Below, one piece after another: positions 1 to 7,728 of a DNA stretch of 32,286 nt (position 1 is its first letter; each line of letters opens with the position of its first letter). Source of the DNA: Eubacteriales Family XIII. Incertae Sedis bacterium (lineage in GTDB: Bacteria; Bacillota; Clostridia; Peptostreptococcales; Anaerovoracaceae); NCBI GenBank assembly GCA_031290135.1, contig JAITOE010000080.1:1-32286 (forward strand), written 5' to 3'. A model generated the notes under the pieces. It searched no databases and was not told the DNA's origin. It saw nothing but the letters and a program-made list of their open reading frames with translations. A program made the position numbers and the translations under genes.

Positions 1-175
1 ATATTCGGGCATCCGGGAAAATGACATGGCGCGGGGCATAAAGTGAAACTGCATATATTATGCGGTCTATTCAGTGGCTCGTTTCTTGTTACGCCTAAAG
101 TGGCTGTGAATAGTAACTTAGGCTGACATATGAAATTGCCAAGCAAAGATAAAAATTGCGCGCGCAGCACGAAGA

Positions 176-430
176 GACGGCGAAAACGAGCCTATCGGTT
201 TGATTTTGTGTGCCGAGGGTAGTCGCGAGCAGATAGAACTTCTCGAAATGGATAAAGCCGAGATAATGGTCGCTCAATACTGGACGACACTACTGCCGAA
301 AGCCGAGTTCGAGCAAAAAATACACACTATACTCGCCGAAGCCCGCGAGCGGTTAGAACGTCGCAAGTTGCTGCTTGCCGACATGGTAGTATTGCAAGAA
401 CCAAATACAGACATTCAGCCGGAGGTATAG
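176..430 (+). pseudogene. C-terminal remnant of a DUF1016/YhcG-family PDDEXK nuclease
   Basis: Frame reads DGENEPIGLILCAEGSREQIELLEMDKAEIMVAQYWTTLLPKAEFEQKIHTILAEARERLERRK, typical of the DUF1016 C-terminus; the sequence further upstream in this frame (ARAARR...) no longer resembles the family and no N-terminal nuclease body is present. Confidence 0.7.
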
Positions 431-3400
431 ATGAATATGAATATTCAACAAAAAAATTGGTTTGATGCATTATCAGTCAATCGCGCCGAAGATGCAAAAG
501 CACTTGAGGGGTTTGCGCTACGCGGTGTAAAAAATAGCGTGGTTGAGAAATATTCCGACCAGGCTCACTTTATCTATGAATTGCTTCAAAACGCCGATGA
601 CGCAAGAGCAACCTCAGCTCGTTTTGAGTTGTTCAAGGACAAGCTCGTGTTTGTGCATAACGGAACACGACGCTTTTCTGTATCTAACCCGGTTACGGAA
701 TCGGAAGACCTCGAACACGGCACACTTGGAGATATAAATGCAATTACGACGGTTGGCAGTTCAAATAAAAACGATGAAGCCACAATCGGAAAATTCGGTG
801 TTGGGTTTAAGGCAGTATTTCAATACACCGCGACACCGCATATCTATGACCCGGACGTATTTTTCAATATTGAAAGATTTATTGTGCCTGTACTGCTTGA
901 TTCCGATTATCCGGGCAGAAACAGTAATGAAACCTTATTTATGTTTCCTTTCGACCACGACAAACGTAATCAAAGCGAAGCGTATGACGACATCTCCGAA
1001 AAGCTTCGTTCGTTAGATTACCCGCTACTATTCCTTTCCCATCTCAAAGACATTGAGTTTGAAATTGCGGGAACACTTGGTCTTTACGGTAAAGCGATTG
1101 AGGAAACACGCGATTTTAACGGAACAAAAGCTGAACTCGTTAAGCTGACCCAAAACAACGACGAGAACCGTGATGAGCTTTACGATAATACGTTGTGGCT
1201 GTTTACTCGAACCAACGGAAATGGTCATACATATTCTGTCGGATTTTTCATAGATGAAAACGGACACCTAACCCCTAAGACCCATAGTGCTTTTTGTTTC
1301 TTCCCAACAAAAGAAAATACGGGACTCAGCTTTATTATTCACGCTCCGTTTCTGCTCACAGACAGCCGTGAAGGAATCCGTGCAGGCGTACAGCATAACA
1401 TAGATATGGTTTCGGCATTATCGAAATTAGCGGCGAATAGCCTTGTCTATCTGCGGGATATAGGAATACAAAAAGGCTCACCGCTCATAGACGATAATAT
1501 TTTTGATATTGTGCCCTATGACGAGAGCACTTTCGGCGATGTGGACAGCAAGAAAGCTATATCTTTCAAGCCGTTCTACACGGAAATTAAAAAGACTTTT
1601 GAAAGTGAGGCAATTATACCGACTTCAAACGGCGGTTATGTCAATACAGATAGCGCGTATTGGGCATTTGTTCCTCGTATAGCTGAATTGTTTTCAAACG
1701 AACAACTTGCCGCATTAGCTAAAAACGAAAGTGCTAAATGGGTATTCATTACTTTTGGCAGGCAAGATACTCAGCGTAAAAATAAAGAACTCACAGAGTA
1801 TATTGACAATATTACTGCTGTTTGGCTTGACGAAGATGATATGCTTAAAGGATGGTCTACCGAAGATGATGAATCATATGAGGGAATAACGGCTGAATTT
1901 ATTGAGGAACAACCTGTTGAGTGGCTGCATAGCTTTTACAAGTGGATATCTGAAACTAAAGGCAGAACAGAACTAATCAGAACAAAGCAAATATTCCTGA
2001 ATCAAGATGACAAAGCTGTCGCCGCTTTCGATTCGCAGAATCAAGCAATTTTGTTTCTTCCCACAGAAGGAGGTAGTGGCTACACTACGGTCAATGAATC
2101 CTTGTTGAGAAATGAAGACACAAATGAGTTTATAAAGCAACTTGGAATTAGTGAGCCATCTTTGAAAGACGAGATTTACAATGTCATCTTTCCGCAGTAT
2201 CAAAATCATGCAGATATTGACACCCGCCCGCATTTCAAAAAGTTTTTCAAATATTATCAAGATTGCTCACAAACAGAAGCAAAGTCGTTGCTTTCATTAC
2301 TAACAGATTATGATTTTGTTCTATATGAATCGGCGGCAGACGAAACGAAATACAGAGGCAAACCGGGAAAACTATATTTTCCGTTCGAGCCTTTGACAAA
2401 ATGGTTTGCGGCGAAACCTGAAACAGAATTTGTGCGCTTCGATGAATACCTCGAACTTGTGGGAGAAGATAACAAAGAAGACTTGGTTTCTTTTCTGACA
2501 GAACTTGGGGTTAAGGATGAACCGAGGATTATTACTCGGGAATTAACCGCGCAAGAAGCTAATCAGATTCAGATTTCTTGGGCACATTCGAGTCGCATTC
2601 AAACTTGGATTGAAAAAGCGATAGACGGCTGTGCCGAATTGGTTGATGCTATTACTGAAACGCAAGACAATAATCGTTCTGTCATTCTTTGGTCGTATTT
2701 GCTCAATTTTATTGAAACTGGATATCAGGCAGATGTACTCTGGGGACGATATGATTATTTTTACTATAGTCCGCAGCATGAATTTTTCGAGTCCACCGAA
2801 GCGAAACGGCTTCGTACGCAATCATGGCTTGTTAATTCTAATGGCGAGCTTGTGTCGACAAGCGAACTTACTGTGCAAACGCTCAACTCACAGTACGATA
2901 CATCGAGCGATGAAGCACTTGAACTGTTTCGCATTTTAGGCATAAAAGAAGAGGTTAACGCGGTTATTGACGAGGACTTAATAGATATTACGACACTCGG
3001 AGAGCAACTTGGCTTGTCAGATGATGAACAACGGCAAGCCTTGTTGGAGTATGCAAAAAAGAAAAAAGCTGAAGAAGCCGAGGACGATTTTGATTCAGAC
3101 CTTGACAATGATATGAGCTATACATCTGAGGTTTCGCCTATATCCGATAGTGCGGACGATATACCGCCTATAAACAAACCTTCTATTAAACGCGTTGGTA
3201 AAGAAATTACAAAACGGGCAACGTTCTCTGCTCCGAAAGAATCATCCAAAATGGACGAGTCTGGTGATGTGCCTGCCGATGAGGACGATTACTCCAAGCC
3301 GTCCGTTGACATAAGCAAGAAGATTGAAAAAGTCAAGGAGCAGGCAGAGCGAGACATACAAGAAATCGCTCGCCTTGAAGATTTGAAGCAAAAAGCACAG

Positions 3401-5257
3401 GATACCGACATCTATTCATATGGGTGGTTCAACGCTTTGCTTGAGCTTGAATCGCTGAACAGCGGCGAAGCCAACTCTTCAACCCGCGAAATCTCAATAT
3501 CATTTGTCAAGGTCGAGCGTGAGAAAGGTACGTCCCGAACCTTGATACTGAAGCACCCCAACCGTTACATTCCGCAATCAATGGAAGACCTCGCCGACAT
3601 TCCGCTTGAATTGCACTTTGCTCATCAACCGATGGTGAAAGTCGCAATAGAAGTCGTGAATGTCAAATCGTATACACTCCGCGCGAAACTTCGCATGAAT
3701 GCCAGTATTGACGGTATAGACCTTTCAACTGTCACGGAAGCTCGAATTGAAACTCGTAATCCTGTATTTTTGATAGAGGAATTGCGTAAGGCTTTTATCA
3801 GGCTTGGGAATGAGAACGAGTATGATGATAGCTTCAATATGCAGGATAATCTTTGCGAGAACATCGAGTTTGTTTTTGGTCCGCCCGGAACTGGCAAAAC
3901 TACGCATCTTGCGAAAAATATTATACTCCCGATGATGAAGTCCGCGGAAGACGTAAAGGTTCTCGTCTTAACGCCGACAAACAAATCTGCGGACGTTCTT
4001 GTTTGCCGGATAATGGAGAGTATGGGTGCTGACCAAAGCTATAAAAATTGGTTAGTCCGATTCGGTGCGACAAACGATACGCTCGTAGAACAAAGCGGCG
4101 TGTTTCGCGATAAGACTCTCGATATTCGCACTTTTCCGAGAAATGTAACCGTCACGACCATTGCTCGTTTCCCATATGATTATTTTCTGCCAGATGAGAA
4201 CACTCGGTTGCACATCAACGCATTGAAGTGGGATTATATTATCATTGATGAAGCCTCTATGATTCCGCTTGCCAATATCGTCTATCCGCTGTATAAGAAA
4301 ACTCCCAAAAAGTTTATTATAGCGGGAGACCCGTTCCAGATTGAGCCGATTACGAGTGTGAACGAGTGGAAAAATGAAAATATTTATACTATGGTCGAAT
4401 TAAACTCGTTTACAGACCCGACGACTATTCCGCATTATTGCGTTGAATTACTGACAACTCAATACAGAAGTATTCCGCAAATCGGAGAAGTGTTCAGTCG
4501 ATTTGCATATGATGGAGTCTTGAAACACGCCCGCTCTGCCGATAATCAGCGGTCTTTGCCAATAAGCGATTTTATTAACCTCAAGTCTTTGAACATCATT
4601 AAGTTTCCGGTAAAAAAGTTTGAGAGCATTTTCAGGGCAAAACGCTTGCAGAGTAAAAGCACATATCAGGTGTACTCGGCACTATTCGCTTTTGAGTATA
4701 TAAAATACCTATCATCAACCATAGAATTGGTCAAGGGTGACGAAAAATTTCGCATTGGATTGATTGCTCCATATCGTGCGCAAGCTGACTTGATAGACAA
4801 GCTGATGACCTCGACAGCATTACCAAAGAATGTTGATGTCCAAGTCGGAACGATTCACGGATTTCAAGGAGATGAGTGCGATATTATTGTTGCCTTGTTC
4901 AATCCTCCACCATCCATAACGACTAACAAGGAGATGTTCCTAAATAAACTGAATATCGTCAATGTTTCAATCAGCCGCGCAAGAGATTATTTGATTATCC
5001 TTATGCCCGATGACGAAACGGAAAACGTGGGAAATCTGTTTCAAATCAAGAGAGTTGAGAGGCACTGTAAAGAGCAGTCTGGGTGTACTGAACAGCTTTC
5101 CACGGATATAGAGGAAGTAATGTTTGGTAGTAAAACACATCTTGAAGACAACTCATTTTCAACAAGTCATCAGTTGGTTAATGTATACGGTAAGCCCGAG
5201 AAGCGTTACGAAGTCCGTAGCGAGGATAACGCAGTTGACGTACAGGTTCACGAGTAG
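431..5257 (+). CDS. Large protein with N-terminal Bergerat (HSP90/sacsin-like) ATPase and C-terminal SF1 (UPF1-like) helicase
   Basis: 1608-aa ORF. N-box FIYELLQNADDA and G-box IGKFGVGFKAVF near the N-terminus; Walker A FGPPGTGKTT (~residue 1150), Walker B IIIDEASM (~1273), C-terminal GTIHGFQGDE and NVSISRARDYLIIL helicase motifs. SD GGAGG at 421-425. Confidence 0.88.
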   Translation: MNMNIQQKNWFDALSVNRAEDAKALEGFALRGVKNSVVEKYSDQAHFIYELLQNADDARATSARFELFKDKLVFVHNGTRRFSVSNPVTESEDLEHGTLGDINAITTVGSSNKNDEATIGKFGVGFKAVFQYTATPHIYDPDVFFNIERFIVPVLLDSDYPGRNSNETLFMFPFDHDKRNQSEAYDDISEKLRSLDYPLLFLSHLKDIEFEIAGTLGLYGKAIEETRDFNGTKAELVKLTQNNDENRDELYDNTLWLFTRTNGNGHTYSVGFFIDENGHLTPKTHSAFCFFPTKENTGLSFIIHAPFLLTDSREGIRAGVQHNIDMVSALSKLAANSLVYLRDIGIQKGSPLIDDNIFDIVPYDESTFGDVDSKKAISFKPFYTEIKKTFESEAIIPTSNGGYVNTDSAYWAFVPRIAELFSNEQLAALAKNESAKWVFITFGRQDTQRKNKELTEYIDNITAVWLDEDDMLKGWSTEDDESYEGITAEFIEEQPVEWLHSFYKWISETKGRTELIRTKQIFLNQDDKAVAAFDSQNQAILFLPTEGGSGYTTVNESLLRNEDTNEFIKQLGISEPSLKDEIYNVIFPQYQNHADIDTRPHFKKFFKYYQDCSQTEAKSLLSLLTDYDFVLYESAADETKYRGKPGKLYFPFEPLTKWFAAKPETEFVRFDEYLELVGEDNKEDLVSFLTELGVKDEPRIITRELTAQEANQIQISWAHSSRIQTWIEKAIDGCAELVDAITETQDNNRSVILWSYLLNFIETGYQADVLWGRYDYFYYSPQHEFFESTEAKRLRTQSWLVNSNGELVSTSELTVQTLNSQYDTSSDEALELFRILGIKEEVNAVIDEDLIDITTLGEQLGLSDDEQRQALLEYAKKKKAEEAEDDFDSDLDNDMSYTSEVSPISDSADDIPPINKPSIKRVGKEITKRATFSAPKESSKMDESGDVPADEDDYSKPSVDISKKIEKVKEQAERDIQEIARLEDLKQKAQDTDIYSYGWFNALLELESLNSGEANSSTREISISFVKVEREKGTSRTLILKHPNRYIPQSMEDLADIPLELHFAHQPMVKVAIEVVNVKSYTLRAKLRMNASIDGIDLSTVTEARIETRNPVFLIEELRKAFIRLGNENEYDDSFNMQDNLCENIEFVFGPPGTGKTTHLAKNIILPMMKSAEDVKVLVLTPTNKSADVLVCRIMESMGADQSYKNWLVRFGATNDTLVEQSGVFRDKTLDIRTFPRNVTVTTIARFPYDYFLPDENTRLHINALKWDYIIIDEASMIPLANIVYPLYKKTPKKFIIAGDPFQIEPITSVNEWKNENIYTMVELNSFTDPTTIPHYCVELLTTQYRSIPQIGEVFSRFAYDGVLKHARSADNQRSLPISDFINLKSLNIIKFPVKKFESIFRAKRLQSKSTYQVYSALFAFEYIKYLSSTIELVKGDEKFRIGLIAPYRAQADLIDKLMTSTALPKNVDVQVGTIHGFQGDECDIIVALFNPPPSITTNKEMFLNKLNIVNVSISRARDYLIILMPDDETENVGNLFQIKRVERHCKEQSGCTEQLSTDIEEVMFGSKTHLEDNSFSTSHQLVNVYGKPEKRYEVRSEDNAVDVQVHE

Positions 5258-5295
5258 CTCGGTATAGCGGATTTCGTTTTTAGTTATGCACGTCT

Positions 5296-5334
5296 GGACA
5301 AAAGGGTGGACAAAAGGGGACGGTTCATTTGTCC
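5296..5334 (+). repeat. REP-like palindromic repeat, copy A
   Basis: ggacaaaagggtGGACAAAaggggacggttcaTTTGTCC; 7-bp terminal inverted arms; same core recurs three more times in opposite orientation (6145, 7019, 7768). Confidence 0.85.
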
Positions 5335-6095
5335 TGCTTGCCTTTCCGCGCCCATCGTTCGACAACCCCTTTGCTCAGGCCTGTTATCCGCGCCAGCTGG
5401 CGTACCGGCACCTGCTTTTCCGTCAGCAGCCCTATCGCGCGGCGCTGCGCGTCCTTGCCCAGCGCCTGAAACGCCGAGGCATTCGACGCCCCGCACGCCT
5501 CACGCATGGACGCGGCGGCCTCATTGTCGAAAAAACGCGGCCTGCGGCCGCGGGCCTCCGGCATCAGTTCCACGTCCATTATTTCATCGGCCCGTTTTCG
5601 GATCGCGTCAACCGGCGCGACGGCCGCCAGGCTTTCCTCGTCCACCAGCCCCTTGCCCGTCCCAAGCAGGCGCCGGCTGCTCCATTCGTAGTCCTTCGTC
5701 TTTTCGCAAAGCCCGGCTTTGACAGGGTTTTGATAAATATAACGCAGCACGGCCAGAAAATACGCGTCGTCCGCCACCGGCTCGCTCTTGAACCGGTCCT
5801 GGAACAAATGCCCGACTCGTCTGTACTTCGCGTTGAACCAAAACACATACCGCGCCCCGAGGCGCTTGATGATCTGCGCCAGCGGCTCTTTCCCTTCTTT
5901 GAGCAACAAATGAACGTGGTTCCCCATCAGGCAATACGCGTACAGCTCAAACCGCGAAAGCTCTTTCACTGCGGCAAGATGGCGCAAAAACTGTTCGCAG
6001 TCTTTGTCTTCCTCAAAGATAAGCTGCCGGTTTATGCCCCGCAACAATACATGGAAGATTCCCGTGCTGCTGGCGATTCGCTGTGCTCTTGGCAT
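5325..6095 (-). CDS. REP-associated tyrosine transposase (IS200-like Y1/HUH; RAYT)
   Basis: GIFHVLLRGINRQLIF, HUH motif YCLMGNHVHLLL, catalytic-Tyr region LRYIYQNPVKAGL, C-terminal HTH (VRQLARITGLSKGVVERWARKG). Confidence 0.9.
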   Translation of the reverse strand: MPRAQRIASSTGIFHVLLRGINRQLIFEEDKDCEQFLRHLAAVKELSRFELYAYCLMGNHVHLLLKEGKEPLAQIIKRLGARYVFWFNAKYRRVGHLFQDRFKSEPVADDAYFLAVLRYIYQNPVKAGLCEKTKDYEWSSRRLLGTGKGLVDEESLAAVAPVDAIRKRADEIMDVELMPEARGRRPRFFDNEAAASMREACGASNASAFQALGKDAQRRAIGLLTEKQVPVRQLARITGLSKGVVERWARKGKQDK

Positions 6096-6144
6096 ATTTC
6101 ATATCCTCCTATGCCCATTATACCGGTATATACGCGCAGAATCA

Positions 6145-6183
6145 AGACAGATGAACCGTCCCCTTTTGTCTGCCTTTTGTCTG
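6145..6183 (-). repeat. REP-like palindromic repeat, copy B
   Basis: agacagatgaaccgtccccttttgtctgccttttgtctg; reverse complement of the copy A core with covarying ends (AGAC...GTCT versus GGAC...GTCC). Confidence 0.85.
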
Positions 6184-6191
6184 CCCGACAA

Positions 6192-7001
6192 TCATATCAC
6201 AAATTCATTCCGGCGATCCAAGAAGAACCGCGCATACGCGCGAACGTTTTCGAGTTCATACCAAGCACGAGGGATGATCTCGGCGCAATTCAAGTCGAAA
6301 ATCGTTCCATCCAAAGACCCGAGGACAAACGGAGAATGCGTCGAGATGACGAACTGCGCGGCGTGAAATCGCGCGGCTTCTTCTATCATCTTTGCGACGC
6401 GGAGCTGGTTGCCCGGAGAAAGCGAAACTTCCGGTTCGTCCAACAGAAACAAACCCGCCGCCTGAATATGGTCCTCAAATACATGCAGCGCCGTTTCTCC
6501 GTTTGAGTATTTCTCCTGCGCGAAGGCAATGCGTTCCAATTGCTTTCCCATTTCATCGCCGGTCTTGTAAGCGGCCGCTTCCTCCCTTGTCATTCCAAAT
6601 TTCATCCGGTCATATACATGGCCTTCCATGAGTACGGCTTCCTGCTGCACTTTTTTTATTTCGTACAGGATGTCTTCGCTTTTGATCAGCCTGCTCGCCT
6701 TTGGGATCACTCGGCGTAAGTCGTCGTCCTCGAAATCGCGCCCGGTTTTGCATTCGCTCACATATTCCGCGAAAAAATCCCTTGTCCCAAACGTTTTTGG
6801 ATGTTCTGCCCCTATGATGCCGAGCGCATACGCAATAATGTTGAGAATCGTTGACTTCCCGGATCCGTTGTCGCCATACAACATCGTGACGCGGTCAAGC
6901 GGAATCGTCTGTCCCGCCTTTGGGTTGAATACGTTGTACGGATAGACATTGGTGTTCCGAATTGTTTTCGGAGAAAATGTGAAACTGCTTATGTATCGCA
7001 T
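6192..7001 (-). CDS. AAA family ATPase (AAA_21-type, ABC-like ATPase)
   Basis: MRYISSFTFSPKTIRNTNVYPYNVFNPKAG..., Walker A LYGDNGSGKST, LLDEPEVSLSPGNQ, VISTHSPFVL. Start assigned to the ATG at 7001 because the ORF-track extension to 7136 is translated repeat DNA. Confidence 0.82.
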   Translation of the reverse strand: MRYISSFTFSPKTIRNTNVYPYNVFNPKAGQTIPLDRVTMLYGDNGSGKSTILNIIAYALGIIGAEHPKTFGTRDFFAEYVSECKTGRDFEDDDLRRVIPKASRLIKSEDILYEIKKVQQEAVLMEGHVYDRMKFGMTREEAAAYKTGDEMGKQLERIAFAQEKYSNGETALHVFEDHIQAAGLFLLDEPEVSLSPGNQLRVAKMIEEAARFHAAQFVISTHSPFVLGSLDGTIFDLNCAEIIPRAWYELENVRAYARFFLDRRNEFVI

Positions 7002-7018
7002 CCCGGCCTGCTCTTTCT

Positions 7019-7112
7019 GGACAAAAGAACCGTCCCCTTTTGTCCTGCCCTTTTGTCCTGCCCTTTTGTCCTGCTTTTGTCCCCTTTTTGTCCCCCCCTT
7101 ACTTTGTCCCAT
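7019..7112 (-). repeat. REP-like repeat, copy C, with tandem GGACAAAA array
   Basis: Minus strand GGGACAAAGTAAGGGGGGACAAAAAGGGGACAAAAGCAGGACAAAAGGGCAGGACAAAAGGGCAGGACAAAAGGGGACGGTTCTTTTGTCC: six GGACAAA units ending in the palindromic core. Confidence 0.85.
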
Positions 7113-7728
7113 AAATTCTATCGCCTGCGTCTCCAAGTCCCGGCAGGATATACGCGTGGCTGTTCAGTTCGCGGTCCAGGCGGGCCGCTATGATGTCCAC
7201 GTCCGGATGCTCCTTTTGCAGCAGTTCGACGCCTTCAGGAGCAGCGATGATGCAGACGAATTTGATGTCTTTCGCGCCTTTGTCCTTGACGAACTGAATC
7301 GCCGCCGAAGCCGAGCCTCCGGTCGCGAGCATCGGATCGAGAACGACGACCTGACGTTTGTCTATGTCATCGGGCAATTTACAGTAGTATTCGACGGGCT
7401 TGTGTGTTTCGGGGTCGCGGTAGAGCCCGACGAAACCGACCTTTGCGTTCGGCACGAGGCTCAAAAATCCATCGACCATGCCGAGGCCGGCGCGCAGGAT
7501 CGGCACAATCGCGAGATCCGCATCGGGAAGAACGTTCACCTTCATCTTCTCAAGCGGCGTCTCTATCTCCGTCTCGACAAGCGGCAGGTCGCGCGTGACT
7601 TCATAGCCTAAGAGTATGGCGATCTCTTTTACCAATTCGCGAAAATCTTTCACGTTCGTGTCTTTGTCGCGCATCATCGCGGCCTTGTGCTGTACCAGCG
7701 GATGGTCGATTACTTTCAACTCACTCAT
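7099..7728 (-). CDS. upp: Uracil phosphoribosyltransferase
   Basis: [24 protein letters not shown]..., PRPP-binding [16 protein letters not shown]-terminal [13 protein letters not shown]. Confidence 0.95.

Follow-up and report, generated by a model that had tools for sequence, protein, structure and literature searches.

A fused Hsp90-type ATPase and UPF1-like helicase as a candidate sensor and motor subunit of mobile bacterial defence modules

We identified a gene near the start of the window (the whole 32,286-nucleotide stretch of DNA analysed here) that encodes, in one uninterrupted frame beginning with ATG, a sacsin/Hsp90-type ATPase fused to a UPF1-like SF1 helicase. The protein probably belongs to an anti-phage or anti-plasmid machine that is as yet uncharacterised, and we propose, with a probability of about 0.55, that it acts as sensor and motor subunit within a family of mobile defence modules. 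If so, one defence protein would combine two ATPase types that usually occur apart, the Hsp90 clamp and the UPF1 motor. The reading draws on the conservation of both catalytic sites and on the enrichment of defence genes beside homologues of the gene.

Domain architecture and conservation

The first-pass annotation had recognised an N-terminal sacsin/HSP90-like ATP site, and profile searches agree: Pfam PF25794 (sacsin) matches aa 36-139 (1.2e-14) and NCBIfam NF047352 matches aa 46-139 (6e-21). The features of Hsp90 and sacsin GHKL proteins are present, namely the N-box Glu/Asn, the GxxGxG segment and a middle-domain arginine. In an alignment of 69 full-length proteins that includes the window's own, E50, N54, D57 and the segment GKFGVGFK are invariant or nearly so, with E50, N54, G120, G123, G125 and R313 each conserved in 69/69 (Table 1).

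The region that follows had been described as lacking recognisable motifs. Instead, it contains an Hsp90-like middle domain with the invariant Arg313 and then a series of alpha/beta repeats. Arg313 (codon 1367-1369) lies within the loop LLTDSREGI, flanked in the predicted structure by a beta-strand and a long helix. The same strand-helix arrangement holds Hsp90 Arg380 and sacsin Arg474, which provide the precedent for a catalytic arginine (PMC9880540). We propose Arg313 as the equivalent of Hsp90 Arg380, by position and motif rather than from a solved structure. The alpha/beta repeat region (aa 380-840) has no Pfam family match and is common to the TmtA models of PADLOC; it is presumed to be a sensor or partner-binding part. 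The idea that the middle region conceals a nuclease was rejected, as no conserved acidic/lysine signature is apparent in the 69 sequences and Pfam gives no nuclease match there. Over the whole chain, too, Pfam and the alignment gave no sign of a nuclease or of any other evidently toxic domain.

The acidic linker noted previously is real and poorly conserved, with 6% mean identity over aa 881-920. The C-terminal UPF1-like helicase is complete, as had been claimed: PF13086 and PF13087 both match, the fold resembles Upf1 (1.9e-26), and helicase motifs I-VI and the accessory stalk/1B domain are all present. Across the 69 sequences, GPPGTGKT, DEAS, Q1344, R1346 and R1516 are invariant or nearly so.

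AlphaFold models of the two halves (62 rows each, two plasmid-collection rows left out) are confident, with pLDDT values of 89.9 (aa 1-880) and 87.5 (aa 961-1608). Foldseek comparisons revealed that the first resembles full-length Hsp90/TRAP1 (TRAP1 5.6e-9) and sacsin SR1. Besides Upf1, the second resembles Sen1, senataxin, IGHMBP2, Dna2 and ZNFX1, and its stalk/beta-barrel and helicase align end to end with Upf1, Sen1 and Dna2. None of the family models searched covers the full length of the protein. Motifs and models show that a single chain carries two conserved ATPase sites, and the UPF1-like (SF1B-type) translocase looks active.

Table 1. Features of the fusion gene and its surroundings in the window
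Feature	Position	Strand	Basis
C-terminal remnant of a YhcG (DUF1016) PDDEXK nuclease gene	158..430	+	PF06250 YhcG_C
Likely ribosome-binding site GGAGG	420..424	+	Direct reading; ATG six bases further on
Sacsin/Hsp90-type ATPase - UPF1-like SF1 helicase fusion, 1608 aa	431..5257	+	ORF call, Pfam, NCBIfam, 69-sequence alignment
GHKL (Bergerat) ATP-binding domain, aa 36-139	536..847	+	PF25794; invariant or near-invariant residues; sacsin SR1/Hsp90 folds
Hsp90-like middle domain, about aa 200-350	1028..1480	+	AlphaFold; Foldseek to full-length Hsp90/TRAP1
Alpha/beta repeat region, about aa 380-840	1568..2950	+	Confident AlphaFold model
Charged, low-conservation acidic linker, aa 881-960	3071..3310	+	Alignment
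Helical stalk and beta-barrel ahead of helicase core, aa 961-1130	3311..3820	+	AlphaFold
SF1 UPF1-like helicase core, aa 1141-1527	3851..5011	+	PF13086/PF13087
Walker A GPPGTGKT	3878-3901	+	Helicase core
Walker B DEAS	4247-4258	+	Helicase core
IS200/REP-type Y1 transposase, outside the system, marker of mobile surroundings	5325..6095	-	PF01797 4.2e-12

Distribution and genomic setting

We scanned 84,980 species genomes and obtained 80 genome loci (numbered with the prefix L); further relatives occur on two plasmids and on one contig from a viral collection, where a Type III methylase is also encoded. The same architecture is seen in 68 full-length homologues from about ten phyla. Because these homologues keep the architecture, a chance fusion is excluded, and we conclude that the fusion of ATPase and helicase is real and old. 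The distribution is patchy: phyla that are unrelated have the gene, at about one copy in each genome; no other copy was found in 197 further genomes of the order, so that the window's own is 1 in 198. Carriage by phages was considered and rejected: besides the viral-collection contig, annotated phages gave one partial match.

The gene has a GC content of 0.421 against 0.545 in the remainder of the window, and its GC3 is 0.42 compared with 0.66-0.79 in twelve neighbouring genes, which bears out the earlier impression that it is AT-richer. Together with the patchy spread over phyla and the absence from the 197 genomes of the same order, this anomalous composition supports the horizontal acquisition suggested in the first-pass annotation. 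The accompanying statement that the gene lies on the strand opposite to its neighbours holds for the annotated downstream genes, which are on the minus strand, but not for the YhcG-like tail upstream, which is on the same strand.

The TAG of that preceding frame directly abuts the ATG of the fusion gene. Its match to PF06250 YhcG_C (E 1.6e-5, profile positions 101-155 of 157) falls under the curated cut-off, and the frame is closed further upstream. The assembly consists of 274 contigs and is 89% complete, and the window begins at a contig end; the upstream context of the gene is missing because the contig ends at base 1. With the contig ending just upstream and the YhcG-nuclease tail as sole remnant, no intact partner can be seen for the window's copy, which may be an orphan. 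The partner appears to have been lost from this genome or not assembled. We rejected partnership with YhcG as a general rule, since the tail has no relative among the other loci.

An open reading frame at 5286-6506 (+) was considered as the next gene of an operon and discarded as spurious; it has no Pfam or PADLOC match, and the Y1 transposase and an AAA ATPase are encoded on the opposite strand. The latter, an AAA_21/AAA_15-type ATPase at 6192-7136 (-), lies between the transposase and the uracil phosphoribosyltransferase. By eye, similar short GGACAAAAGGGGACGG-type sequences flank the transposase and recur near 7020-7095, and the stretch 5286-7100 resembles a REP-type element next to the ATPase-helicase gene.

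Defence genes beside homologues

The defence or conflict context proposed for the gene from its sequence is supported by a survey of neighbourhoods, in which loci with flanks of at least 15 kb were compared with 40 controls taken from the same genomes. PDC-S68, a PADLOC phage-defence candidate, occurs in 12/34 of these well-flanked loci and in 0/40 controls (p=2.5e-5). A restriction-modification (R-M) seed panel was matched in 9/34 flanks versus 1/40 controls (p=0.004, seed loci excluded). The combined seed count reaches 20/34 when the neighbour loci themselves serve as seeds; we rely on the leave-out figure because such seeds inflate the combined count. The neighbour tallies showed no housekeeping gene that is conserved beside the homologues.

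PDC-S68 is the commonest neighbour, a protein of about 1220 aa with a RecD-like helicase. It is a frequent, operon-like partner of the ATPase-helicase family but a different protein. Nearly all of 22 aligned copies share the C-terminal pattern RSKSE..YE..PDFT..WEH, which on reading of the alignment appears to be of the PD-(D/E)XK type. Linkage was found in 18 of the 80 genome loci. Specifically, PDC-S68 lies close upstream on the same strand in 11 (overlapping, or with gaps of 11-182 nt); in L059 it lies further upstream, four copies are downstream, and one each is divergent and convergent. Intact pairs occur, for instance, in L012 (Lachnoanaerobaculum orale) and L047 (Bacillus massilionigeriensis). 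The background frequency is 4/399 genomes of the phylum, and of 50 homologue genomes that lack an adjacent copy, only 3 have an unlinked one. PDC-S68 is also found without the ATPase-helicase family. In the window's own genome (assembly 89% complete), a search for PDC-S68 elsewhere gave only RecD2-like matches.

The linkage requires 14 changes on the tree and was therefore gained or lost repeatedly. Distances between ATPase-helicases and between their PDC-S68 partners correlate (r=0.51, p=2e-4). Also, loci L017 and L056 have PDC-S68 proteins that are 94% identical beside much less similar ATPase-helicases, which suggests recent cassette exchange. These three lines of evidence indicate that the pair has been repeatedly assembled and is exchangeable. 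L006 (77-805) and L056 (19307-19837) share a small protein family (MLxIEEYIARRKKEDKLNEF); the two islands are related.

Other defence neighbours are more varied. A Type III Mod gene lies upstream in L002, L003, L020, L081 and L086, with a Res-type helicase directly before the ATPase-helicase gene in those loci where this was scanned. The order in L010 is PglX-PglZ-SNF2, then the ATPase-helicase, then PDC-S68. Apparent type I R-M genes precede PDC-S68 and the ATPase-helicase in L099, from Desulfosporosinus, with a methylase 9.7 kb away, and L008 has a C5 methylase and a Vsr-like ORF. By our count, an N6-methylase (PF02384) is found within 20 kb in 4/50 cases against about 1.4 expected; we dismissed a strong Type I R-M linkage, this proximity being only modestly above expectation. 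Some points weigh against the sensor and motor reading. PDC-S68 is itself no more than a PADLOC candidate, and about three quarters of the loci lack it; many of these are on short contigs, and in many of them none of the adjacent genes is a recognised defence gene.

Proposed role, rival readings and known systems

Given these analyses, we propose a working mechanism. ATP-driven closure of the Hsp90-type clamp would sense foreign nucleic acid or a phage-induced state, the clamp and the alpha/beta repeat region forming the sensing part. The UPF1-like helicase would then load onto single-stranded nucleic acid, remodel it and translocate, and a partner nuclease acting in trans would cut: PDC-S68, a Type III Res subunit or, formerly in the window, YhcG. 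In a more specific version, which we put forward tentatively and think somewhat less probable than otherwise, the ATPase-helicase and PDC-S68 constitute a new two-gene defence system. Its chaperone-type ATP clamp would license two SF1 motors from different families, one UPF1-like and the other RecD-like, for the unwinding and cutting of invading nucleic acid, and elsewhere other nuclease modules would have taken the place of the second gene. The orphan candidate PDC-S68 would thereby gain a partner. In animals, links to immunity have been described for sacsin-type ATPases as well as for UPF1-like helicases (ZNFX1, for example), and the bacterial fusion therefore offers a simple, testable system for an Hsp90-like module in immunity.

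Alternatively, the protein may be a stand-alone abortive-infection effector, as the first-pass annotation had entertained, its ATPase sensing infection and its helicase alone blocking phage or host nucleic-acid metabolism. The fusion is self-contained, many loci have no conserved partner, and the single-gene system Tiamat shares the N-terminal half. However, neither a nuclease signature nor any other evidently toxic domain was found in the chain. Genes that do have nuclease signatures often accompany the homologues, the recurrence of PDC-S68 and Type III Res suggesting partners in trans. We regard action alone as improbable, and a sensor and motor in a multi-gene module as likelier, because the protein lacks a nuclease signature. 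The variety of partners (Type I, II and III, BREX/DISARM-like and PDC-S68) would also fit an accessory that modulates various R-M systems or merely collects in defence islands, with the window's copy a decaying relic; only the YhcG tail is retained there, and L059 and L071 are broken copies. Two observations speak against such hitchhiking, which we think unlikely: the conservation of the catalytic residues across the family, and a PDC-S68 linkage that is specific, in many cases tight, and found in several gene orders. The closest folds of both halves are eukaryotic housekeeping proteins, as would be expected of an RNA or DNA quality-control factor that combines a chaperone with a UPF1/Dna2-like helicase. 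This role is very improbable for a gene that is so rare in its order, occurs about once per genome in unrelated phyla, has plasmid-borne relatives and an anomalous GC content, and keeps no conserved housekeeping neighbour.

The sensor and motor reading has parallels among described systems. The nearest conceptual precedent is the GHKL ATPases of R-M operons, in which MORC/paraMORC proteins with a GHKL plus S5/middle module co-occur with helicases, nucleases and methylases (Iyer 2008, PMC2292703). Those are separate MORC-type genes beside SF2 helicases, whereas here a sacsin-type ATPase is fused to an SF1 helicase; the paraMORC feature of a GHKL protein adjoining R-M genes is seen in a subset of homologue loci and not in the window. 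Hachiman HamAB (PMC12278908) and Gabija GajAB (PMC10781630, PMC10822852) work in a similar way in that an NTP-driven helicase is partnered with a nuclease, but neither is described as having an Hsp90-type clamp, and we claim homology only for generic helicase motifs. In the open-access literature we found no paper describing the ATPase-helicase architecture as a defence system, nor an experimental study of it.

It remains true, as noted earlier, that the protein cannot be assigned to a named system, although one half is Tiamat-like and the other Mokosh/UPF1-like. By sequence comparison, it is neither a full TmtA, whose C-terminus differs, nor a full MkoA or MkoC, with which it shares the helicase only. 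The similarity to Tiamat (TmtA, PADLOC PDLC03964-03972) covers the N-terminal GHKL ATPase and the middle region, aa 41-816 aligning to 38-807 of 1302 in PDLC03972 (1.7e-39), while an SF1 helicase replaces the DUF3883-like C-terminus of models PDLC03964 and 03971. The similarity to Mokosh (MkoA/MkoC; PDLC03920, 03921 and 03924) lies in the UPF1-like SF1 helicase core, the models matching aa 1259-1526 only (up to 1.6e-32). The definition of Mokosh includes a kinase (type I) or a PLD nuclease (type II) as associated domain, and Pfam detects neither in the window's protein; Mokosh is not known to have an Hsp90-like ATPase.

The TmtA C-terminal region that the window's protein lacks is matched by L065, an ATPase half without helicase that is 41% identical over aa 3-878 and ends in a DUF3883-like domain. 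L077 consists of the ATPase module alone. A modular rule is suggested, in which one ATPase half ends in either a helicase or a DUF3883-like domain. These two loci lend a little weight to the idea that the protein was formerly encoded by two genes, but no locus with two intact adjacent genes for ATPase and helicase was found among the homologue loci. We therefore discarded split gene pairs, the non-fusion copies being frame-broken, contig-truncated or ending in other domains. By reading of the sequences, L110 and L111 are more distant sacsin-type ATPases that also have a DUF3883-like tail, and L111 adjoins what look like type I R-M genes.

Several loci show further variation. In L071 (10001-13114), the ATPase module is followed by a truncated helicase in which Walker A and DEAS look lost, possibly a pseudo-helicase. 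L016 has a partial duplicate of the helicase half (6378-7391, 63% to the window's protein) just downstream of the full gene. A conserved C-terminal extension of roughly 110 aa (IPEELR..AIDLPVKG..GWCYLVPY) occurs in L012, where it has no Pfam match, and in L019, L025, L031, L044 and L055. A different short C-terminal tail, SH3/Tudor-like in appearance, is found in L035, L061 and L079.
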